64,000 nt of DNA from positions 62,001 to 126,000 of the forward strand of contig NZ_JADKRX010000003.1 in NCBI RefSeq assembly GCF_015350975.1, read 5' to 3'. The translations under genes were made by a program, and so were the position numbers. The notes below the pieces were generated by a model. The model was not told the origin of the DNA. It saw nothing but the letters and a program-made list of their open reading frames with translations, and did no database searches. This stretch comes from Curtobacterium sp. VKM Ac-1395. GTDB lineage: Bacteria; Actinomycetota; Actinomycetes; Actinomycetales; Microbacteriaceae. Every line of letters begins with the position of its first letter. Positions within the stretch are counted from its first letter, which is position 1. Positions 35,486-48,005 of this stretch are shown here, one piece after another.

Positions 35486-35490
35486 GCTGG

Positions 35491-35562
35491 TGGGCGATAC
35501 TGGGATCGAACCAGTGACCTCTTCCGTGTCAGGGAAGCGCGCTACCGCTGCGCCAATCGCCC
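35491..35562 (-). tRNA. tRNA-Val(GAC)
   Basis: On the minus strand, acceptor arms GGGCGAT/ATCGCCC pair with discriminator A, and CCA is encoded directly after it (35488-35490). The anticodon stem-loop is CTTCC-CTGACAC-GGAAG, anticodon GAC. The T-loop is TTCGATC. Confidence 0.97.
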
Positions 35563-35600
35563 AGAGAGTCCCTGCAGACCGAGGTCCGACAGAGTCTTGG

Positions 35601-35671
35601 AGGTGGGGACGGGATTCGAACCCGCGTGGACGGCTTTGCAGGCCGCTGCCTAGCCTCTCGGCCACCCCACC
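35601..35671 (-). tRNA. tRNA-Cys(GCA)
   Basis: On the minus strand, acceptor arms GGTGGGG/CCCCACC pair. The anticodon loop CTGCAAA sits between CGGC and GCCG and gives anticodon GCA. The T-loop is TTCGAAT. It is 71 nt long with no encoded CCA. Confidence 0.96.
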
Positions 35672-35753
35672 ATCGAGGTTCACGTCTCCGTGAGTACCCG
35701 AACGGTGGGATACCCTCTGGTGAGAAACCGGCCCCCGAGGGAACCAGTACTCG

Positions 35754-35825
35754 AGCGGATGACGAGATTCGAACTCGCGACCCTCACCTTGGCAAGGTGA
35801 TGCGCTACCACTGCGCCACATCCGC
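35754..35825 (-). tRNA. tRNA-Gly(GCC), copy 2
   Basis: The 72-nt body is the same sequence as the copy at 13938-14009, with anticodon GCC in TTGCCAA. It is the promoter-proximal gene of the minus-strand Gly-Cys-Val cluster. Confidence 0.97.
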
Positions 35826-35857
35826 ATGTCGTTGTCCGCTCTCGCGGCGACTCGTAA

Positions 35858-35887
35858 ACTGTATCCGACTCAGGGCCCTTTCTCCAA
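35858..35887 (-). promoter_or_regulatory. Candidate promoter of the tRNA Gly-Cys-Val cluster
   Basis: On the minus strand, TTGGAG and TACAGT are separated by 18 nt. The -10 box ends 33 nt upstream of the mature tRNA-Gly 5' end, a plausible distance. Consensus match is moderate. Confidence 0.5.
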
Positions 35888-36027
35888 AATCCTTCCCGTT
35901 CACCGGGCGTGTCCCCCGGGTTCATGCGGATCGGGGGCGTTCGGGCGAGCACGACGCGCGCGAGGGCGACACGTGGTTCGGCACACCGCCGCGCATCCGC
36001 TACTATCGATCCGCACGCAAGTGCGAG

Positions 36028-36100
36028 GGGCGATTGGCGCAGTTGGTAGCGCGCTTCGTTCACACCGAAGAGGTCATCAGTTCGAGTCTGGTATCGCCCA
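36028..36100 (+). tRNA. tRNA-Val(CAC)
   Basis: Plus strand. Acceptor arms GGGCGAT/ATCGCCC pair and the discriminator is A. The anticodon stem-loop is CTTCG-TTCACAC-CGAAG, anticodon CAC. No CCA is encoded. A TACTAT box at 36001-36006 could serve as its -10 element. Confidence 0.97.
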
Positions 36101-36109
36101 CGTACCGCC

Positions 36110-36139
36110 AAGAGCCCGACGCAGCCGCGTCGGGCTCTT
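36110..36139 (+). terminator. Terminator after tRNA-Val(CAC)
   Basis: Perfect 13-bp stem, AAGAGCCCGACGC / GCGTCGGGCTCTT, with a 4-nt loop and a T at the end. It ends 50 nt before the jetA start codon, so the jet operon needs its own promoter in that gap or depends on read-through. Confidence 0.85.
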
Positions 36140-36189
36140 TGCATCCCAGGACACCACCGACCACGACCCGACCGACCACCAGGGGCAGC

Positions 36190-37743
36190 ATGACCGACGT
36201 CGACCTCGAGTACGCACGCGTCCGTGCCGTGCTCGACCGTCCGACGCTCCGGCTGATGTCCCGCCCGACGAGCGGTGTCGTGCTCGCCGTCTTCCGCACG
36301 GTGTTCGACCGCGACGTGCAGTACGTCCCCGCCGACCGGATGCACCTGCAGGTCGAGGAGCACGTCACCCGCCTGCAGGCCACGGGCGCCCGCGTCCCCG
36401 CGAGCGAGCAGCCAGCACCACAAGCACAAGCACAAGCACAAGCACCCGACGAGAACCGCCCGAACGGCCGCGCTCTCTGCCGCGAATGGGTGACGGCGCA
36501 GTGGCTCGTCCGCTCGAACTCCCCCGACGGTGACGAGCAGTACTCGCTGACGTCGCACGCGCTCGAGGCCCTGAGCCTCGTCGACGCCCTGTCCTCCGAC
36601 CGGGCGCTCATCAGCGAGAGCCGCCTGGCGATGATCGTCGACGCCGTACATCGATGGGCTGCCCGCGCCGAGCCCGACCCCGCGGTGCAGATCCGCCGCC
36701 TGGACGCCCAGATCGCGGAACTCCAGGCCGAGCGCGACCGCCTGGCGTCCGGCGACGAGCCCGCCGTGGTCGACGCCGACCGGATGCGCGACGGCTACAC
36801 GAACATCACCGACCTGATCCGGCAGCTACCCAGCGACTTCAAGCGCGTCGAGGAAGCGGTGGCGTCGATGCACCGCGCGATCGTCGAGGACTTCCGCAAC
36901 GAGGTCCGTCCGATCGGCGAGATCCTCGACGACTACCTCGCCCGCACGGACACCCTGATGGAGGCCACCCCCGAGGGCCGGGCCTTCGAGGGCGCCTTCG
37001 AGCTGCTCCGCGACGACGCCCTGCTCCTGCGCCTCCGCGACGACATCGCCACGATCCTCGAGCACCCCTTCGCCGCGGGACTCACCGCCGCCGAACGCCG
37101 GACCTTCCGCAACACGGTCAGCATCCTGCGCCAGGGCATCGAGGACGTGCTCGCCCAGCGACGGCTCCTGACCGGCACGCTGCGCGACCAGATCGTCGCG
37201 CACGACGTCGTCCGGGACCGCGAACTCGACGCCGTCCTCCGCAGCGTCAACCGCCGGCTCGCCGCGCTCATGGACGGCGGCGGCGCTCGGGACCGCGTCC
37301 CGCTGGAGCTCCTGCCCCCGGTCGCCGAGGTCGGCACCCTGCGCGAGCGCTTCTACGACCCCGACACCGAGGCGGTGCCGCCGCTCATCGAGGAACCCGA
37401 CGACGACGTCTTCGAGGAGCTCGACGTCGAGTCCCTCCGGCGGCACGGCGGTCCGCTGCTGGCAGAGCTCCGCACCGTGCTCCGGTCGGGCGCCGCCGAG
37501 TCGAGTGACCGCGCGTTCCACGGGCTGCCGCCCGAGCACCGCCGCCCCGTCGAGCTCTTCGGCCTGGCACACCTGCTCACGGGCCGCCCCGACTTCGAGA
37601 CCGCGGCCGCCACCGTCCCGCACCACACGGTGCGCCCGGACGGCACCGCGGTCACCTTCGCCATGCCGACGGCGGACCTGGCAGCACCGGTCCCGTCCGG
37701 CGACGACGACGACGACGACGACGACACCCTGGAGGCCCGGTGA
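36190..37743 (+). CDS. jetA: DUF3375 protein, JetA/MksF (kleisin-type subunit of Wadjet/MksBEF SMC complex)
   Basis: The protein has 517 residues from an ATG preceded by AGGGG. The N-terminal helical region (1-190) has LMSRPTSGVVLAVFRTVFDRD. A central region matches DUF3375: GYTNITDLIRQLPSDFKRVEEAV, then GEILDDYLARTDTLMEATPEGRAFEGAFELL. The C-terminus is acidic and ends in eight Asp. In Wadjet this kleisin bridges the heads of the SMC-like JetC and binds JetB. Two low-complexity stretches stand out: Gln-Ala repeats at about 77-86, encoded by a 6-bp DNA repeat, and the Asp run. It overlaps jetB by 4 nt. Confidence 0.85.
   Translation: MTDVDLEYARVRAVLDRPTLRLMSRPTSGVVLAVFRTVFDRDVQYVPADRMHLQVEEHVTRLQATGARVPASEQPAPQAQAQAQAPDENRPNGRALCREWVTAQWLVRSNSPDGDEQYSLTSHALEALSLVDALSSDRALISESRLAMIVDAVHRWAARAEPDPAVQIRRLDAQIAELQAERDRLASGDEPAVVDADRMRDGYTNITDLIRQLPSDFKRVEEAVASMHRAIVEDFRNEVRPIGEILDDYLARTDTLMEATPEGRAFEGAFELLRDDALLLRLRDDIATILEHPFAAGLTAAERRTFRNTVSILRQGIEDVLAQRRLLTGTLRDQIVAHDVVRDRELDAVLRSVNRRLAALMDGGGARDRVPLELLPPVAEVGTLRERFYDPDTEAVPPLIEEPDDDVFEELDVESLRRHGGPLLAELRTVLRSGAAESSDRAFHGLPPEHRRPVELFGLAHLLTGRPDFETAAATVPHHTVRPDGTAVTFAMPTADLAAPVPSGDDDDDDDDTLEAR
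36421..36444 (+). repeat. Hexanucleotide tandem repeat inside jetA
   Basis: Four perfect CAAGCA units, encoding alternating Gln and Ala. Changes in unit number would stay in frame and lengthen or shorten a linker. Confidence 0.9.
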
Positions 37744-38561
37744 CCGACACGACGCCCGCATCCGTCGACGAGACGGACGAGTTCGACGGCATCGACCCCT
37801 TCGACGACGCCGCTTCCGTCCCCGAGGACGACCGCGACGAGTCGAGCTTCGCCCTCTTCGAGGGCGACGAGGGCCGGCTCGACGACGCGCAGCGCCGTGC
37901 GCTCGTCGCGCTCCTGCGGCACTCCTACGTCAGCGCCCGGACGCACGCGGACGAGTGGCGGGCCGTGCTCGACGCCGAACACCAGCTCCGGTCCCGCCTG
38001 AACGACCTGTTCCTCGAACTGCACGTGGACCGCGACCGCGAGGTGGCGTGGAAGCGCCAGGCCCGCTCGGAGAGCCAGCGCCGGGGCTTCCCGACGCTGC
38101 TCCGCGACGTGCCGTACACCCGCGAGGAGACGATCGTCCTCGTCTGGCTCCGCATGCGCCTGCGCGCCGACACCCGACCGGGCCCCGACCAGGTGGTGGT
38201 CGACCGATCCGAGATCCTCGCGCACGTGGCGGGCTTCCGACCGGCGACCGCGACCGACCGCACCCGCGACGAGGGCCGCGTGGCGAAGGCCGTCGAACGA
38301 CTCGTCACCGCCCGGGTGCTCCTGAAGACGAGCGACCCGGACCGCTTCCGGATCGCGAGCGTCGTGGAGGTGCTGCTCCCCCTCGAACGGCTGCTCGAAC
38401 TCGACGCCTGGTTGGCGAGCACAGCGTTGGCGAGCACGGCGTTGGCCGGCGCGACCACCGCGGGTGGTGACGCTCCCGACGGAGCCGAGCCGAGCCTCCC
38501 GGCGGACCTGGACCTGGACCTGGACGCCGAGACCGACGACACCGAGGAGGGGTCCGCGTGA
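37740..38561 (+). CDS. jetB: DUF4194 protein, JetB/MksE (winged-helix subunit)
   Basis: The protein has 273 residues from a GTG overlapping the jetA stop. After an acidic N-terminus (about 1-50) comes the DUF4194 core (about 55-215) with RRALVALLRHSYVSARTHADEW, RGFPTLLRDVPYTREETIVLVWLRMRL and EGRVAKAVERLVTARVLLKT, a helix-turn-helix-like arrangement. The tail has small repeats (LASTA twice) and an Asp-Leu run. JetB dimers bind the kleisin in the SMC complex and probably contact DNA. Both junctions are 4-nt overlaps, implying fixed stoichiometry with JetA and JetC. Confidence 0.83.
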   Translation: MTDTTPASVDETDEFDGIDPFDDAASVPEDDRDESSFALFEGDEGRLDDAQRRALVALLRHSYVSARTHADEWRAVLDAEHQLRSRLNDLFLELHVDRDREVAWKRQARSESQRRGFPTLLRDVPYTREETIVLVWLRMRLRADTRPGPDQVVVDRSEILAHVAGFRPATATDRTRDEGRVAKAVERLVTARVLLKTSDPDRFRIASVVEVLLPLERLLELDAWLASTALASTALAGATTAGGDAPDGAEPSLPADLDLDLDAETDDTEEGSA

Positions 38562-41500
38562 GCGACCACCGGATGGACGGCGGGATCCCCGCGTTGTTCG
38601 ACACCGTCGCGCAGTGGCGCGCCGAGTCCATGCAGGTCGTGAACTGGGGCGGCTTCCACGGCCACCGGCAGATCGAGCTGTCCGGTACCGCGACGCTCAT
38701 CTCCGGCGCCTCCGGAACGGGCAAGTCCACGCTGATGGACGCCTACCTCGCCGTGATGATGCCGTCGGACGTGCCGTTCAACGGCGCCTCGAACGACGCC
38801 ACCACCGGTCGGGCGCGCAGCGCGGACCAGCGCAACCTGCTCACGTACCTACGCGGCAAGGTCGACACCCGGCGCGACCCGGAGTCGGGCAGCCTCCGCG
38901 ACGTCAACCTGCGCGGCGACGACACGACGACGTGGGGCGCGGCCGCGGTGACGTTCCGCAACGACGACGAGCGTCAGTTCACCGTGCTGCGGGCGTACGT
39001 CGTGCCGAAGCGGGCCCGCGGGGTCGGCGACATCCAGATGACGATGGCGACGGTCGACGACGCCTTCGACCTGCGGCGGCTCGAGGACTTCGTGCCGTCG
39101 CGGTTCAGCCACCTCGAGCTGACCGGTCGGGTGCCGGGACTCGTCATCCGCGACACGTACCAGGAGCTCGCGTACACGCTGCAGACGCGGCTCGGGATCG
39201 GCGACTCCGGCGGAGGCAACCGGGCGATGCGCCTGCTCGCGCGGATCCAGGCCGGGCAGCACATGCCGACGGTCGACTCGCTCTACAAGTCGCTCGTGCT
39301 CGAGACCCCGGGCACGTACGAGGCCGCCGACCGGGCGCTGGCCCACTTCGCCGCGCTCGACGACGCGTACGAGGCGATGGACACCGAGGAGCGCAAGGTC
39401 CGGATCCTCTCCCCGATCACCGAGCTGCACCTGGAGATCGAACGCTCCCGTGCCGCGGCCGAGGCCCTCGGCGGGATCGCCACGGGGTCCGAGGTCTCCC
39501 CGTTCGCGCACTGGACGGCATCGAGGAAGCGGGAGCTGCTCGACGACGAGGTCGCGCGGAACGGCCGGGAGCGCACCGCTGCCCGCGCCGAGGTCGAGGC
39601 AGCGTCCGCCCGGCACGCCGCCGTCGAGATCGAGCTCCGCGAGGCCGAGGCCCGGCTCCGCGACTCCGGCGGCAACGCCCTCGCCCAGCTCGAGGACCGG
39701 ATCGACCGACGGACCCGGGAGCGTGAGGTCGTCGCCCGCGCGCGGGCGACCTTCGACGACCGGACGGACGTGCTCGGGGCGGCGGTGGCATCCGAGCAGG
39801 AGTTCGTCGGGGCGCAGCGCGCGTCCCACGAGTTCCTCGGCACCTTCGCCGCCGCCCGCGACGACCTCGACGCCCGACGCGACGCCCTGACGCGCGAGGA
39901 GTACCCGCTCCTGGACCGTGAACGCTCGCTGCGCCAGGAACGTCAGTCGCTCGAGCACCGCCAGGGCGCGATGCCGCTGCCGATGCACGAGGCCCGGGTC
40001 GCGATGGCGCGCGCCGCCGGGATCGACCCCGCGGACCTGCCCTACGTGGCCGAGCTCCTCGACGTCCTGCCTGGAGAGGAGCGCTGGCGCACGGCGATCG
40101 AGTCCGTGCTCGCGCCCGTCGCCCGCACGCTGCTCGTCGACCAGGACCGGCTCGACGACTTCAGCGCCGCGATCGACGCCCTGCAGCTGAGCGTCCGCGT
40201 GCAGTTCGAGGGCGTACCAGCGGGCCCGCACCTCGACGTCGACGGCAACCCGGCGATGGTGTCCGGCAAGCTCGCGATCAAGGACTCCCCCTTCAGCACC
40301 TGGGTGCGGTCCCGGATCGAGTCGGACCGGATCGACGCCAGGTGTGTGACGTCCGCCGCCGAGCTCGGTGGTGGTGGCCGTCGGGTCACCGAGTCCGGCC
40401 AGCTCCGCGACGGCCGACGTGGCGCGCACGGCGACCGGCGTCAGGCCAACGTGATCGGGTTCACGAACGAGGCGCGGGTCGTCGCCGTGGAGACCGAGCT
40501 CGCGTCGATCGCCCAGGACCTCGCGACGCTCGAGGCCCGGCGCACCGACGTCGCGCAGGACATCGCCGCACTCGACGCCCTCCGAGCGGCACACCAGCAC
40601 CGCGTCGACACCACGTGGGACGGCATCGACGTCGCCGGTGTCGACGCGTCACTGGCTCGGCTGTCGGCGGAGCGGGACGCCGTCCTCGCGGCCGACGACG
40701 GCCTGCGGACGCTGCGGGCCTCGGTCGCCCGGCTCCGCGCATCGCTCGACGAGGCCGCTGACCGCCGTGCCGCCGCACGCCTGTCCGTGCAGCGGCTCGA
40801 GGAGCGCCACGGCGTGCTCGTCGACGGCCAGGACGCCGCCGCGGAGATCCTGTCGCGCTTCGACGACGCCCCCGCGGCGTTGCCGGACGAAGAGCAGGCG
40901 CGGCTGCTGGCCGAGACGTTCGAGGAGGTCGGTGCCCCGGCAGGGGTCGACGGCTTCGATGACGCCACGAAGCGTCTGCGCCGCCGGCTGGAGGAACGCC
41001 TGACCCAGGCGCTCGACGGAGCCGCCTCGGCGTCCCACGCGCTGACCCTGACGTTCCAGCGGTACCAGGACGCCTGGGCCGACCCGAACCTCGGCACCGG
41101 GGTTGCGTCGTACCCGGACTACCGGGCGATCCTCGACCAGATCGTCGCGACCGGCCTGCACGCCCGTCGCAGCGAGTGGCGCCGTCGGCTGTCGCAGTGG
41201 AGCGGCGAGGACCTCGTCCCGCTCGCCGGCGCCTTCGACCGGGCCGTCGTGGAGATCGAGGAGCGCCTGGAGCCGGTCAACGAGATCCTCCGCGACCTGC
41301 CCTTCGGCGCGAACCGGGACCGCCTGAAGATCGTCATCCGCCGGGTCACGCGCGAGGACGTCTCGCAGTTCCGCCGGGAGCTCCGGGCGCTGTCCGCGTC
41401 GGTCGACACCGAGCTGACCGACGACGTGCTGGAGACCCGCTTCCGCCGACTCCGGCGCTTCATGGCCGTCATCCGGGTCGAGCCGGACGCCGCCCGCGGC

Positions 41501-41935
41501 CGCACGACCCAGCGCGACGCGGTGCTCGACGTCCGCCGGCACATGGAGATCACCGCCGTGCGCTACGACACCGAGGGCAACGACCTGGGCGTGTACTCGT
41601 CCCTCGGCGACAAGTCCGGCGGCGAGACGCAGGAGCTCGTCGCGTTCATCGTCGGGGCCGCGCTGCGCTACCAGCTCGGCGACGAGACCCGGCCGCGGCC
41701 CCGGTTCGCGCCGGTGTTCCTCGACGAGGCGTTCATCAAGGCGGACTCGGAGTTCGCCGGGCGTGCCGTGACGGCGTGGCTCCGGCTCGGGTTCCAGCTC
41801 GTGGTGAGTGCGCCGCTCGACAAGGTCACGGCGCTGGAGCCGTCGATGGAGCGCCTGCTCTCGATGCGGAAGCACCCGGACACGGGCCACTCGTCCGTGA
41901 CGGAGATCCGTCGGGAGCCCGCGCTGACGTCCTGA
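38558..41935 (+). CDS. jetC: SMC-like ATPase, JetC/MksB (MukB/SbcC-type ABC ATPase)
   Basis: The protein has 1125 residues. Walker A GASGTGKST is at residues 50-58. Long charged, Glu/Arg/Ala-rich coiled-coil stretches span about 290-480 and 630-830, with a hinge-like region between them (about 490-620). The ABC signature DKSGGETQ is near residue 1019 and Walker B FAPVFLDEAF has the catalytic Asp-Glu at 1056-1057. This is the motor of the Wadjet/MksBEF complex, which loops DNA. Head and coil lengths are complete, so the gene looks functional. The gene that usually accompanies it, jetD (DUF3322/DUF2220 nuclease), is not found downstream or upstream. Confidence 0.88.
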   Translation: MSDHRMDGGIPALFDTVAQWRAESMQVVNWGGFHGHRQIELSGTATLISGASGTGKSTLMDAYLAVMMPSDVPFNGASNDATTGRARSADQRNLLTYLRGKVDTRRDPESGSLRDVNLRGDDTTTWGAAAVTFRNDDERQFTVLRAYVVPKRARGVGDIQMTMATVDDAFDLRRLEDFVPSRFSHLELTGRVPGLVIRDTYQELAYTLQTRLGIGDSGGGNRAMRLLARIQAGQHMPTVDSLYKSLVLETPGTYEAADRALAHFAALDDAYEAMDTEERKVRILSPITELHLEIERSRAAAEALGGIATGSEVSPFAHWTASRKRELLDDEVARNGRERTAARAEVEAASARHAAVEIELREAEARLRDSGGNALAQLEDRIDRRTREREVVARARATFDDRTDVLGAAVASEQEFVGAQRASHEFLGTFAAARDDLDARRDALTREEYPLLDRERSLRQERQSLEHRQGAMPLPMHEARVAMARAAGIDPADLPYVAELLDVLPGEERWRTAIESVLAPVARTLLVDQDRLDDFSAAIDALQLSVRVQFEGVPAGPHLDVDGNPAMVSGKLAIKDSPFSTWVRSRIESDRIDARCVTSAAELGGGGRRVTESGQLRDGRRGAHGDRRQANVIGFTNEARVVAVETELASIAQDLATLEARRTDVAQDIAALDALRAAHQHRVDTTWDGIDVAGVDASLARLSAERDAVLAADDGLRTLRASVARLRASLDEAADRRAAARLSVQRLEERHGVLVDGQDAAAEILSRFDDAPAALPDEEQARLLAETFEEVGAPAGVDGFDDATKRLRRRLEERLTQALDGAASASHALTLTFQRYQDAWADPNLGTGVASYPDYRAILDQIVATGLHARRSEWRRRLSQWSGEDLVPLAGAFDRAVVEIEERLEPVNEILRDLPFGANRDRLKIVIRRVTREDVSQFRRELRALSASVDTELTDDVLETRFRRLRRFMAVIRVEPDAARGRTTQRDAVLDVRRHMEITAVRYDTEGNDLGVYSSLGDKSGGETQELVAFIVGAALRYQLGDETRPRPRFAPVFLDEAFIKADSEFAGRAVTAWLRLGFQLVVSAPLDKVTALEPSMERLLSMRKHPDTGHSSVTEIRREPALTS

Positions 41936-42132: not shown

Positions 42133-42450
42133 ATGTGGAACCGGAAGAGACGACCCGCGGCGGCCGAGCAGCACGGCGCACTCGGCATCGGCGCTCTGGT
42201 GCGGGTCGTCGATGCGACGTCGGGCGGCGAGCAGTGGGTGGACTCGATCGGCTCGAGCGACGTCGTCGGCGTCATCGTCGCACCCGGCGGCAACCAGCTG
42301 GTCGGCTACCCCGGCGTCGGCGAGCCGCTGTCGTGGACCGTCGCGTTCGACGAGCCCGTGTACACGAAGGACGGCCGCGGCCCCTTCGAGCGCGCGACCG
42401 TCCTGAGTCGTCAACTGGTCCCGGTGGAACCCGTGCAGCCTGAGGCCTAG
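42133..42450 (+). CDS. Hypothetical protein (105 aa)
   Basis: The protein has 105 residues. A basic N-terminus (MWNRKRRPA) is followed by a small beta-rich sequence with LVRVVDATSGGEQWVDSIGSSDVVGVIVAPGGNQLVGYPGVGEPLSW. No membrane helix or cysteine pattern is seen. It is about 200 nt after jetC, with its own start, and its TAG stop overlaps the stop of the minus-strand small gene. It is too short and has none of the residues expected for a JetD nuclease. Function unknown. Confidence 0.6.
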   Translation: MWNRKRRPAAAEQHGALGIGALVRVVDATSGGEQWVDSIGSSDVVGVIVAPGGNQLVGYPGVGEPLSWTVAFDEPVYTKDGRGPFERATVLSRQLVPVEPVQPEA

Positions 42451-47021: not shown

Positions 47022-48005
47022 CAGCCCGAGCTCGTGCACGCTGTCCGGCGTGGTCGTCTCCCGGGTGCCGACGGCGAGCACCCCGGCGACCGGCACCACC
47101 GCGGCGACGGCGTGCACCATGAGGAGCGAGTCCTCGTGCTTCCGCCCCGCGTCGACGACGACCCACACCTGGTCCGGCGCCAGGCCCTCGAGCGCCGCGT
47201 GGTCGTCCCAGGCGACGGCACCGAGCAGCGCGTGGCCCGCGCGGACCCCGTCGGCCCGCGCCAGGATCCCACCACGGCGGTCGAGGGCGTCGGTCTCCCG
47301 CAGGTCGTGCCGCGCGGCGAACGCGGCACGGGCAGCGCCGACGTCGGCGCCGCGCCCGACGAGCAGCACCAGGTCGCCGTCACCCGACAGGACCGGCGGC
47401 ACCGGGGGCCGCCCCGCGGCCAGCGCACGCCGTCCGCGACGCGTGGTGAGGTCGTGGACGGGAGCCGCGCCTCCAGTCGGTCCGGCCAGGAGGACCGGCG
47501 CGGCCTCCAGGGGCGGGCGCGACCCCGAGACGGGGTCGGTGGGGAACGGGATCGCCTCCGGCACCGGGACGGGCGCTGCGACGGGCGCGGGGCCGGTCGC
47601 AGGGCCGGTCGCGAGGACGGGGACCGGGCCGCTGGGCACGGCCGGGGCGATGCCGTCGGCGGCGAACCCGCCGAGCACGGACGCGAACGCGTCGGCCCGG
47701 GCCTCGCGCGCGCCGTCACCGCCGGCGATGCGGGCCTCCGCCTCGTCGGCGTCGGCGAGGAGCGCGGCGATCCCGATCCGGGTGGCGGGTCCGTCGGCGA
47801 TGGCGACGCGGGCGGTCGGGACCTCGTCGGGGTCGAGCACCTCGACGGTGGCCTCGACGTGCGCACGGCGGAAGAGCCCGCCGACACCGCCGCTGGTGAC
47901 GCGCTCGGCGGCGATGATCCGCGCGCCGGCACCGAACTCGGCTCGGACGGCGTCGCGGACGTCGTCGAGCGTCGCGCCGCTACGCTGCAATCGGGTCGGC
48001 GGCAC
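47004..48005 (-). CDS. FlhF-like protein lacking the SRP-type GTPase domain
   Basis: The protein has 333 residues from a GTG start, overlapping flhA by 26 nt. The N-terminal segment (about 10-55: GATLDDVRDAVRAEFGAGARIIAAERV, then GGVGGLFRRAHVEATVEV) resembles the N-terminal domain of FlhF. A Pro/Ala/Val-rich linker (about 110-180) follows. The C-terminal region (about 200-330: DLVLLVGRGADVGAARAAF and DQVWVVVDAGRKHEDSLLMVHAVAAVVPVAGVLAVG) keeps a Rossmann-like rhythm, but no P-loop GxxxxGKT is seen. It may be a degenerate FlhF GTPase. Its C-terminus runs into the repeat element. Confidence 0.6.
   Translation of the reverse strand: MPPTRLQRSGATLDDVRDAVRAEFGAGARIIAAERVTSGGVGGLFRRAHVEATVEVLDPDEVPTARVAIADGPATRIGIAALLADADEAEARIAGGDGAREARADAFASVLGGFAADGIAPAVPSGPVPVLATGPATGPAPVAAPVPVPEAIPFPTDPVSGSRPPLEAAPVLLAGPTGGAAPVHDLTTRRGRRALAAGRPPVPPVLSGDGDLVLLVGRGADVGAARAAFAARHDLRETDALDRRGGILARADGVRAGHALLGAVAWDDHAALEGLAPDQVWVVVDAGRKHEDSLLMVHAVAAVVPVAGVLAVGTRETTTPDSVHELGLPVRPR

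Follow-up and report, generated by a model that had tools for sequence, protein, structure and literature searches.

An intact JetABC (MksFEB) operon without a detected JetD nuclease in Curtobacterium, probably encoding an accessory condensin

In Wadjet type I systems (JetABCD; MksBEFG in Corynebacterium glutamicum and EptABCD in Mycobacterium smegmatis) the plasmid is extruded by a motor made of a JetABC dimer, and the JetD nuclease cuts it once extrusion is complete (PMC12647877). The nuclease gene is reported in the operons of both C. glutamicum and Pseudomonas aeruginosa PA14 (PMC10123090). MksBEF of P. aeruginosa, which lacks MksG, functions in chromosome segregation (PMC7485682) and is regarded as a descendant of JetABCD that lost JetD (PMC10586767); the latter source also raises the question of a defence origin, via nuclease loss, for condensins of the MukBEF and MksBEF types. 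Here we describe a jetABC operon in a 64,000-nucleotide stretch of the Curtobacterium sp. VKM Ac-1395 genome (the window; Table 1). It encodes an intact Wadjet type I JetABC (MksFEB) complex for which no JetD was found in the genome, and comparative analysis suggests that it is probably an accessory chromosome-organising condensin rather than a plasmid-cutting defence system. Genomes and loci are referred to by G and L numbers.

The frames of jetA, jetB and jetC are intact, with a 4-nt overlap at both the jetA/jetB and jetB/jetC junctions. Pfam places JetA in DUF3375 (316 bits) and JetB in DUF4194 (114 bits), and JetC matches SbcC_Walker_B (79 bits) and AAA_29 (73 bits); the PADLOC models JetA1, JetB1 and JetC1 score 598, 363 and 1362 bits, and the top matches among solved structures are JetC (8dk2, 8as8) and JetA (8dk1, 8q72) for the products of the respective genes. 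In NCBIfam, JetC has weak SMC matches only, and JetA and JetB have no match. The original prediction, made from the DNA alone, had described intact DUF3375, DUF4194 and SMC-like ATPase genes with 4-nt overlaps; this description holds, and Pfam, PADLOC and, for JetA and JetC, the solved structures agree in keeping the proteins within the JetABC families. The JetC of Curtobacterium sp. VKM Ac-2865 is 98% identical to that of the window, and KSGGE is the form taken by the JetC signature in the relatives scanned.

The operon thus shares with Wadjet type I the JetA, JetB and JetC families, the A-B-C order, the 4-nt overlaps and the intact ATPase motifs, but differs in having no JetD found alongside it or in the genome and in its vertical inheritance as a core element of the genus. 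As an mksF-mksE-mksB operon without mksG it has the make-up of the MksBEF type: P. aeruginosa MksBEF is likewise a nuclease-free three-subunit complex beside Smc-ScpAB (PMC7485682, PMC10586767), whereas the Curtobacterium set is actinobacterial, and the likeness is drawn from composition and not from the PAO1 sequences. Given that JetD-bearing relatives occur among the actinobacteria, the loss of JetD was likely independent of that in P. aeruginosa MksBEF. Escherichia coli MukBEF has the same plan of kleisin, KITE and SMC-type ATPase, with a weak MukB N-terminal Pfam match (29 bits), but it is distant in sequence, and Curtobacterium also has the ScpA of Smc-ScpAB.

The absence of JetD from the operon, noted in the original prediction, extends to the whole genome in profile searches: neither JetD_C (PF09983) nor DUF3322 (PF11795, searched to an E value of 10) was found in the genome of the strain, which is assembled in 18 contigs and 99.98% complete. 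The accompanying suggestion that jetD lies elsewhere is not supported by these searches, and JetD_C lies above the cut-off in a single one of 66 Curtobacterium genomes (G002), where it belongs to a second, separate operon of the usual Wadjet kind, the nuclease-free operon being additionally retained at its usual site. In G046 a lone JetD_C match falls below the cut-off (E 0.1), and 15 of the 65 genomes without JetD_C above cut-off are single contigs. A JetD profile built in this study detected no JetD after jetC in any of the 51 loci of the genus for which 2 kb or more of downstream sequence was available (the same strain is sometimes repeated among them, and they include two close kin, L228 and L247), and matched 21 of 84 other loci at 268–460 bits; of 141 JetC-bearing loci, six with less than 2 kb downstream were left out. 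As leave-one-out scores were 268–340 bits in 13 of 13 cases, a JetD adjoining jetC would have been detected. In loci lacking JetD, faint matches (39–115 bits) covering the 3' end of jetC were rejected as an artefact: the queries had been translated between stop codons, and their first part mirrored jetC in a different reading frame. These matches vanish when called JetD proteins are used.

Nuclease-free operons extend well beyond Curtobacterium. DUF3375 occurs in 71 of 299 genomes of the family Microbacteriaceae (70 above cut-off) and JetD_C in 32 (G192 and G274 being weak part matches); matching of the two lists by hand places all 32 within the 71, so that 38 of the 70 lack any JetD_C. Across a phylum sample of 396 genomes, DUF3375 is above cut-off in 16, with JetD_C in nine of these and not in the other seven. 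Reading of flanks, as opposed to whole genomes, revealed nuclease-free loci in Isoptericola, Sanguibacter, Jonesia, Timonella, Luteimicrobium, Paraoerskovia and Microlunatus, and a JetD in the Nocardioides cremeus locus. Eight genomes (G002, G160, G198, G300, G320, G357, G365 and G431) harbor a JetD-bearing and a nuclease-free operon together, which suggests that the two kinds have different jobs. In G678 of the phylum sample (L214, L223) we observed a nuclease-free JetABC and, on a different contig, a short JetD match with no adjoining JetABC.

At least 10 changes of JetD state, nine of them forced by starred branches, are required on a 97-row tree of JetC in which 21 rows have JetD and 76 do not; the tree is unrooted and made by a quick method, and several of its long branches carry warnings. 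Loci lacking a 900-aa JetC were excluded from it, and 44 of the 67 loci of one set (Curtobacterium, two close kin and one partial locus) were omitted as near-copies. The window falls in a group of 20 rows, comprising Curtobacterium, the genus numbered g50 and two other Microbacteriaceae, which is uniformly nuclease-free and has a support of 100. JetD and JetC distances co-vary across 23 systems (0.88, p 0.0002), though the correlation is weak for the nine closest (0.34, p 0.04). Of the five Microbacteriaceae with JetD that are most closely related to the window, four show a 4-nt jetC/jetD overlap. The number of state changes and the covariation of the two proteins make it likely that JetD was lost recurrently from an old partnership, loss being the inferred direction of change, and we infer that the ancestor had JetD and that the lineage of the window lost it. 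In the genus numbered g48, two genomes with close JetC proteins differ in this respect: G235 has jetD, and G181 has other genes in its place (L134, L135), with no jetD remnant found in G181 by TBLASTN. This loss looks recent.

Comparison of the locus across relatives, as the original prediction proposed, established a nuclease-free operon at a fixed site as the common state of the genus. DUF3375 is present in 63 of the 66 Curtobacterium genomes, the others being G065 (73% complete) and the near-complete G043 and G044, and in each of the 12 further Curtobacterium loci measured the distance from tRNA-Val(cac) to the start of jetA is 68–164 bp. A search for a repeated tRNA-Val 3' end, which would suggest an integrated element, led nowhere. 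For ten genomes JetC distances follow those of the scpA region (Spearman 0.66, Mantel p 0.0009), and the coefficient is 0.79 when G002 is included. The ratio of nonsynonymous to synonymous substitution rates (dN/dS) in six Curtobacterium pairs, picked for closeness, is 0.03–0.15 for jetC, 0.06–0.26 for jetA and 0.09–0.23 for jetB, next to 0.02–0.26 for genes near scpA (five pairs). The operon is vertically inherited within the genus and is under purifying selection. ScpA is present in 65 of the 66 genomes, that of the strain included, so that the complex is no replacement for Smc-ScpAB, the presence of which was judged from ScpA alone.

The operon also occupies a consistent chromosomal position. 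Among the largest operon-bearing contigs of all 21 Curtobacterium genomes that have such a contig and at most three contigs, 12 begin with dnaA followed by dnaN, and the other nine begin elsewhere and are uninformative; the first 14 were chosen partly for a mid-contig operon and the remaining seven were added later. In 12 of the 12 records beginning at dnaA, jetA lies at 0.463–0.502 of the contig, which places the operon opposite the origin; the identity of dnaA was confirmed by NCBIfam in the four cases tested. The terminus presumably lies at the position of the operon; GC skew around the locus in G005 is too weak to place it.

Going by the family mechanism, JetC dimers together with the JetA kleisin and JetB are predicted to use ATP, entrap DNA and extrude loops. 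Without JetD, extrusion would end as a loop with no double-strand break, which would leave the motor able to work on the chromosome, as P. aeruginosa MksBEF does. Several observations weigh against such a role. The near-complete genomes G043 and G044 do without the complex, which is hence dispensable: both retain the four tRNA genes and the acyl-CoA oxidase gene, but neither jetABC nor the 105-aa gene that follows it is present. In C. glutamicum, MksBEFG acts on plasmids with no obvious nucleoid effect (PMC7083940), from which it follows that the motor is not chromosome-organising by default. Of alignment columns linked to JetD, JetA shows none and JetC just two, isolated and found under a loose criterion; nothing here points to a loss of JetD docking. 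Finally, the type is not always chromosomal, given a nuclease-free set on a 220-kb Mycolicibacterium fortuitum plasmid (L292, CP089609.1 45367-56591), in which the DUF3375 gene is annotated as two pieces. This plasmid is one of the best three matches among plasmid records, the others being Rhodococcus sp. USK13 and R. jostii RHA1, both with JetD; in M. fortuitum no JetD was found within 4 kb of jetC. Overall, a search of 72,556 plasmid records for relatives of JetC gave 16, every one below 60% identity, and a search of 50,697 phage records gave one. Rapidly and slowly growing mycobacteria have been reported to differ in a set of domains that includes DUF3375 and DUF4194 (PMC10551460).

The strongest alternative, which we nevertheless consider unlikely, is restriction without a dedicated nuclease, whereby JetABC would sense small DNA circles and compact or silence them, or leave them to a general host nuclease. 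Family members do act on plasmids (PMC10123090, PMC7083940), JetA and JetC lose no region where JetD is absent, and Smc5/6, which silences viral DNA circles, offers a precedent (PMC10586767). Against this, purified Wadjet and the C. glutamicum system require the nuclease (PMC10123090, PMC10586767), and the core, housekeeping-like inheritance of the operon contrasts with the patchy occurrence of JetD-bearing operons (one in 66 genomes of the genus).

It is improbable that a different effector works with JetABC, be it the 105-aa protein or a nuclease encoded elsewhere. The original prediction had offered, as one option, a nuclease-free condensin-like complex with a chromosome role or a different effector; the composition of such a complex stands, as the genes are intact, selected and vertically inherited with no nuclease found, the chromosome role is proposed by analogy, and the 105-aa protein was rejected as a dedicated effector. 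Its gene, found in 62 of the 66 genus genomes, is absent along with jetABC from G043, G044 and G065, as might be expected of a partner, but G024 has jetABC without it, and relatives of the protein are spread over 67 of the 299 genomes and 22 of the 85 genera of the family, some of them in genomes without DUF3375 (e.g. G069, G073) and others at a distance from jetABC (e.g. G114, G285). The protein has no Pfam, PADLOC or NCBIfam match. A common replacement gene downstream of jetC was likewise rejected: in 46 nuclease-free operons outside Curtobacterium the next gene, as called by a simple in-house caller, is on the opposite strand in 28 and starts 58–703 nt away in the other 18, and the encoded proteins are unlike one another. 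A distant nuclease was sought through JetD domains only.

A JetD partner acting in trans and missed through an assembly gap or divergence is very improbable; the 18-contig assembly and the separate contigs of the JetD match and jetABC in G678 leave room for it, but the completeness of the genome, the lack of JetD_C above cut-off in 65 genus genomes and the ready detection of JetD by profile argue against it. The idea of a decaying Wadjet remnant is equally implausible, for although the loss in genus g48 seems recent and the DUF3375 match of G274 contains stops, the Curtobacterium genes are intact and under purifying selection save in G010 (65% complete, with broken frames), G064 (split by contig ends) and L269 (a broken frame).

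The flanks of the operon largely agree with the original prediction, which placed tRNA genes and a terminator upstream and a 105-aa protein and a transporter downstream. Downstream lie the 105-aa protein of no known family and then a POT-family transporter gene on the opposite strand; upstream the tRNA genes are as described, and the terminator amounts to a stem-loop read by eye at about 36112-36142, between tRNA-Val(cac) and jetA, a pattern scan for sigma-70 promoters and terminators having listed no terminator upstream of jetA. The tRNA cluster is retained in G043 and G044 (L194, L195), where other genes replace jetABC and the gene of the 105-aa protein.

Table 1. Features of the jetABC locus and its surroundings, in window coordinates.
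Feature	Position	Strand	Remarks
jetA / mksF, kleisin-type subunit, DUF3375	36190-37743	+	517 aa, ATG start
jetB / mksE, KITE-type subunit, DUF4194	37740-38561	+	273 aa, GTG start
jetC / mksB, SMC-type ATPase	38558-41935	+	1125 aa, GTG start
Walker A of JetC, GASGTGKS, aa 50-57	38705-38728	+	motif scan
ABC signature of JetC, SGGE, aa 1020-1023	41615-41626	+	motif scan
Walker B of JetC, VFLDE, aa 1053-1057	41714-41728	+	motif scan
Val(gac)-Cys-Gly / Val(cac) tRNA cluster	35488-36101
tRNA-Val (anticodon cac)	36028-36101	+	ARAGORN; 88 bp upstream of jetA
105-aa protein, no known family	42133-42450	+	ORF (open reading frame) begins 197 bp after jetC
tRNA-like gene, anticodon unreadable	47302-47394	-	ARAGORN

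What is new here is the likely recurrent loss of the nuclease with maintenance of the motors in Actinomycetota. Among the portions of papers returned by a search of the open-licence literature, we recognised none on nuclease-free JetABC in this phylum, and the single Curtobacterium paper found names Wadjet in passing (PMC11856565). We tentatively propose, at somewhat less than even confidence, that Actinomycetota have repeatedly disarmed Wadjet, with JetD lost many times and the motor domesticated as a second chromosome condensin that in Curtobacterium is core and terminus-side. With 38 of the 70 DUF3375-bearing family genomes lacking JetD, JetABC alone is no basis for annotating plasmid defence. 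Related motors exist with and without the nuclease, even within one genus (G235 and G181), which makes the switch from defence to housekeeping directly testable.

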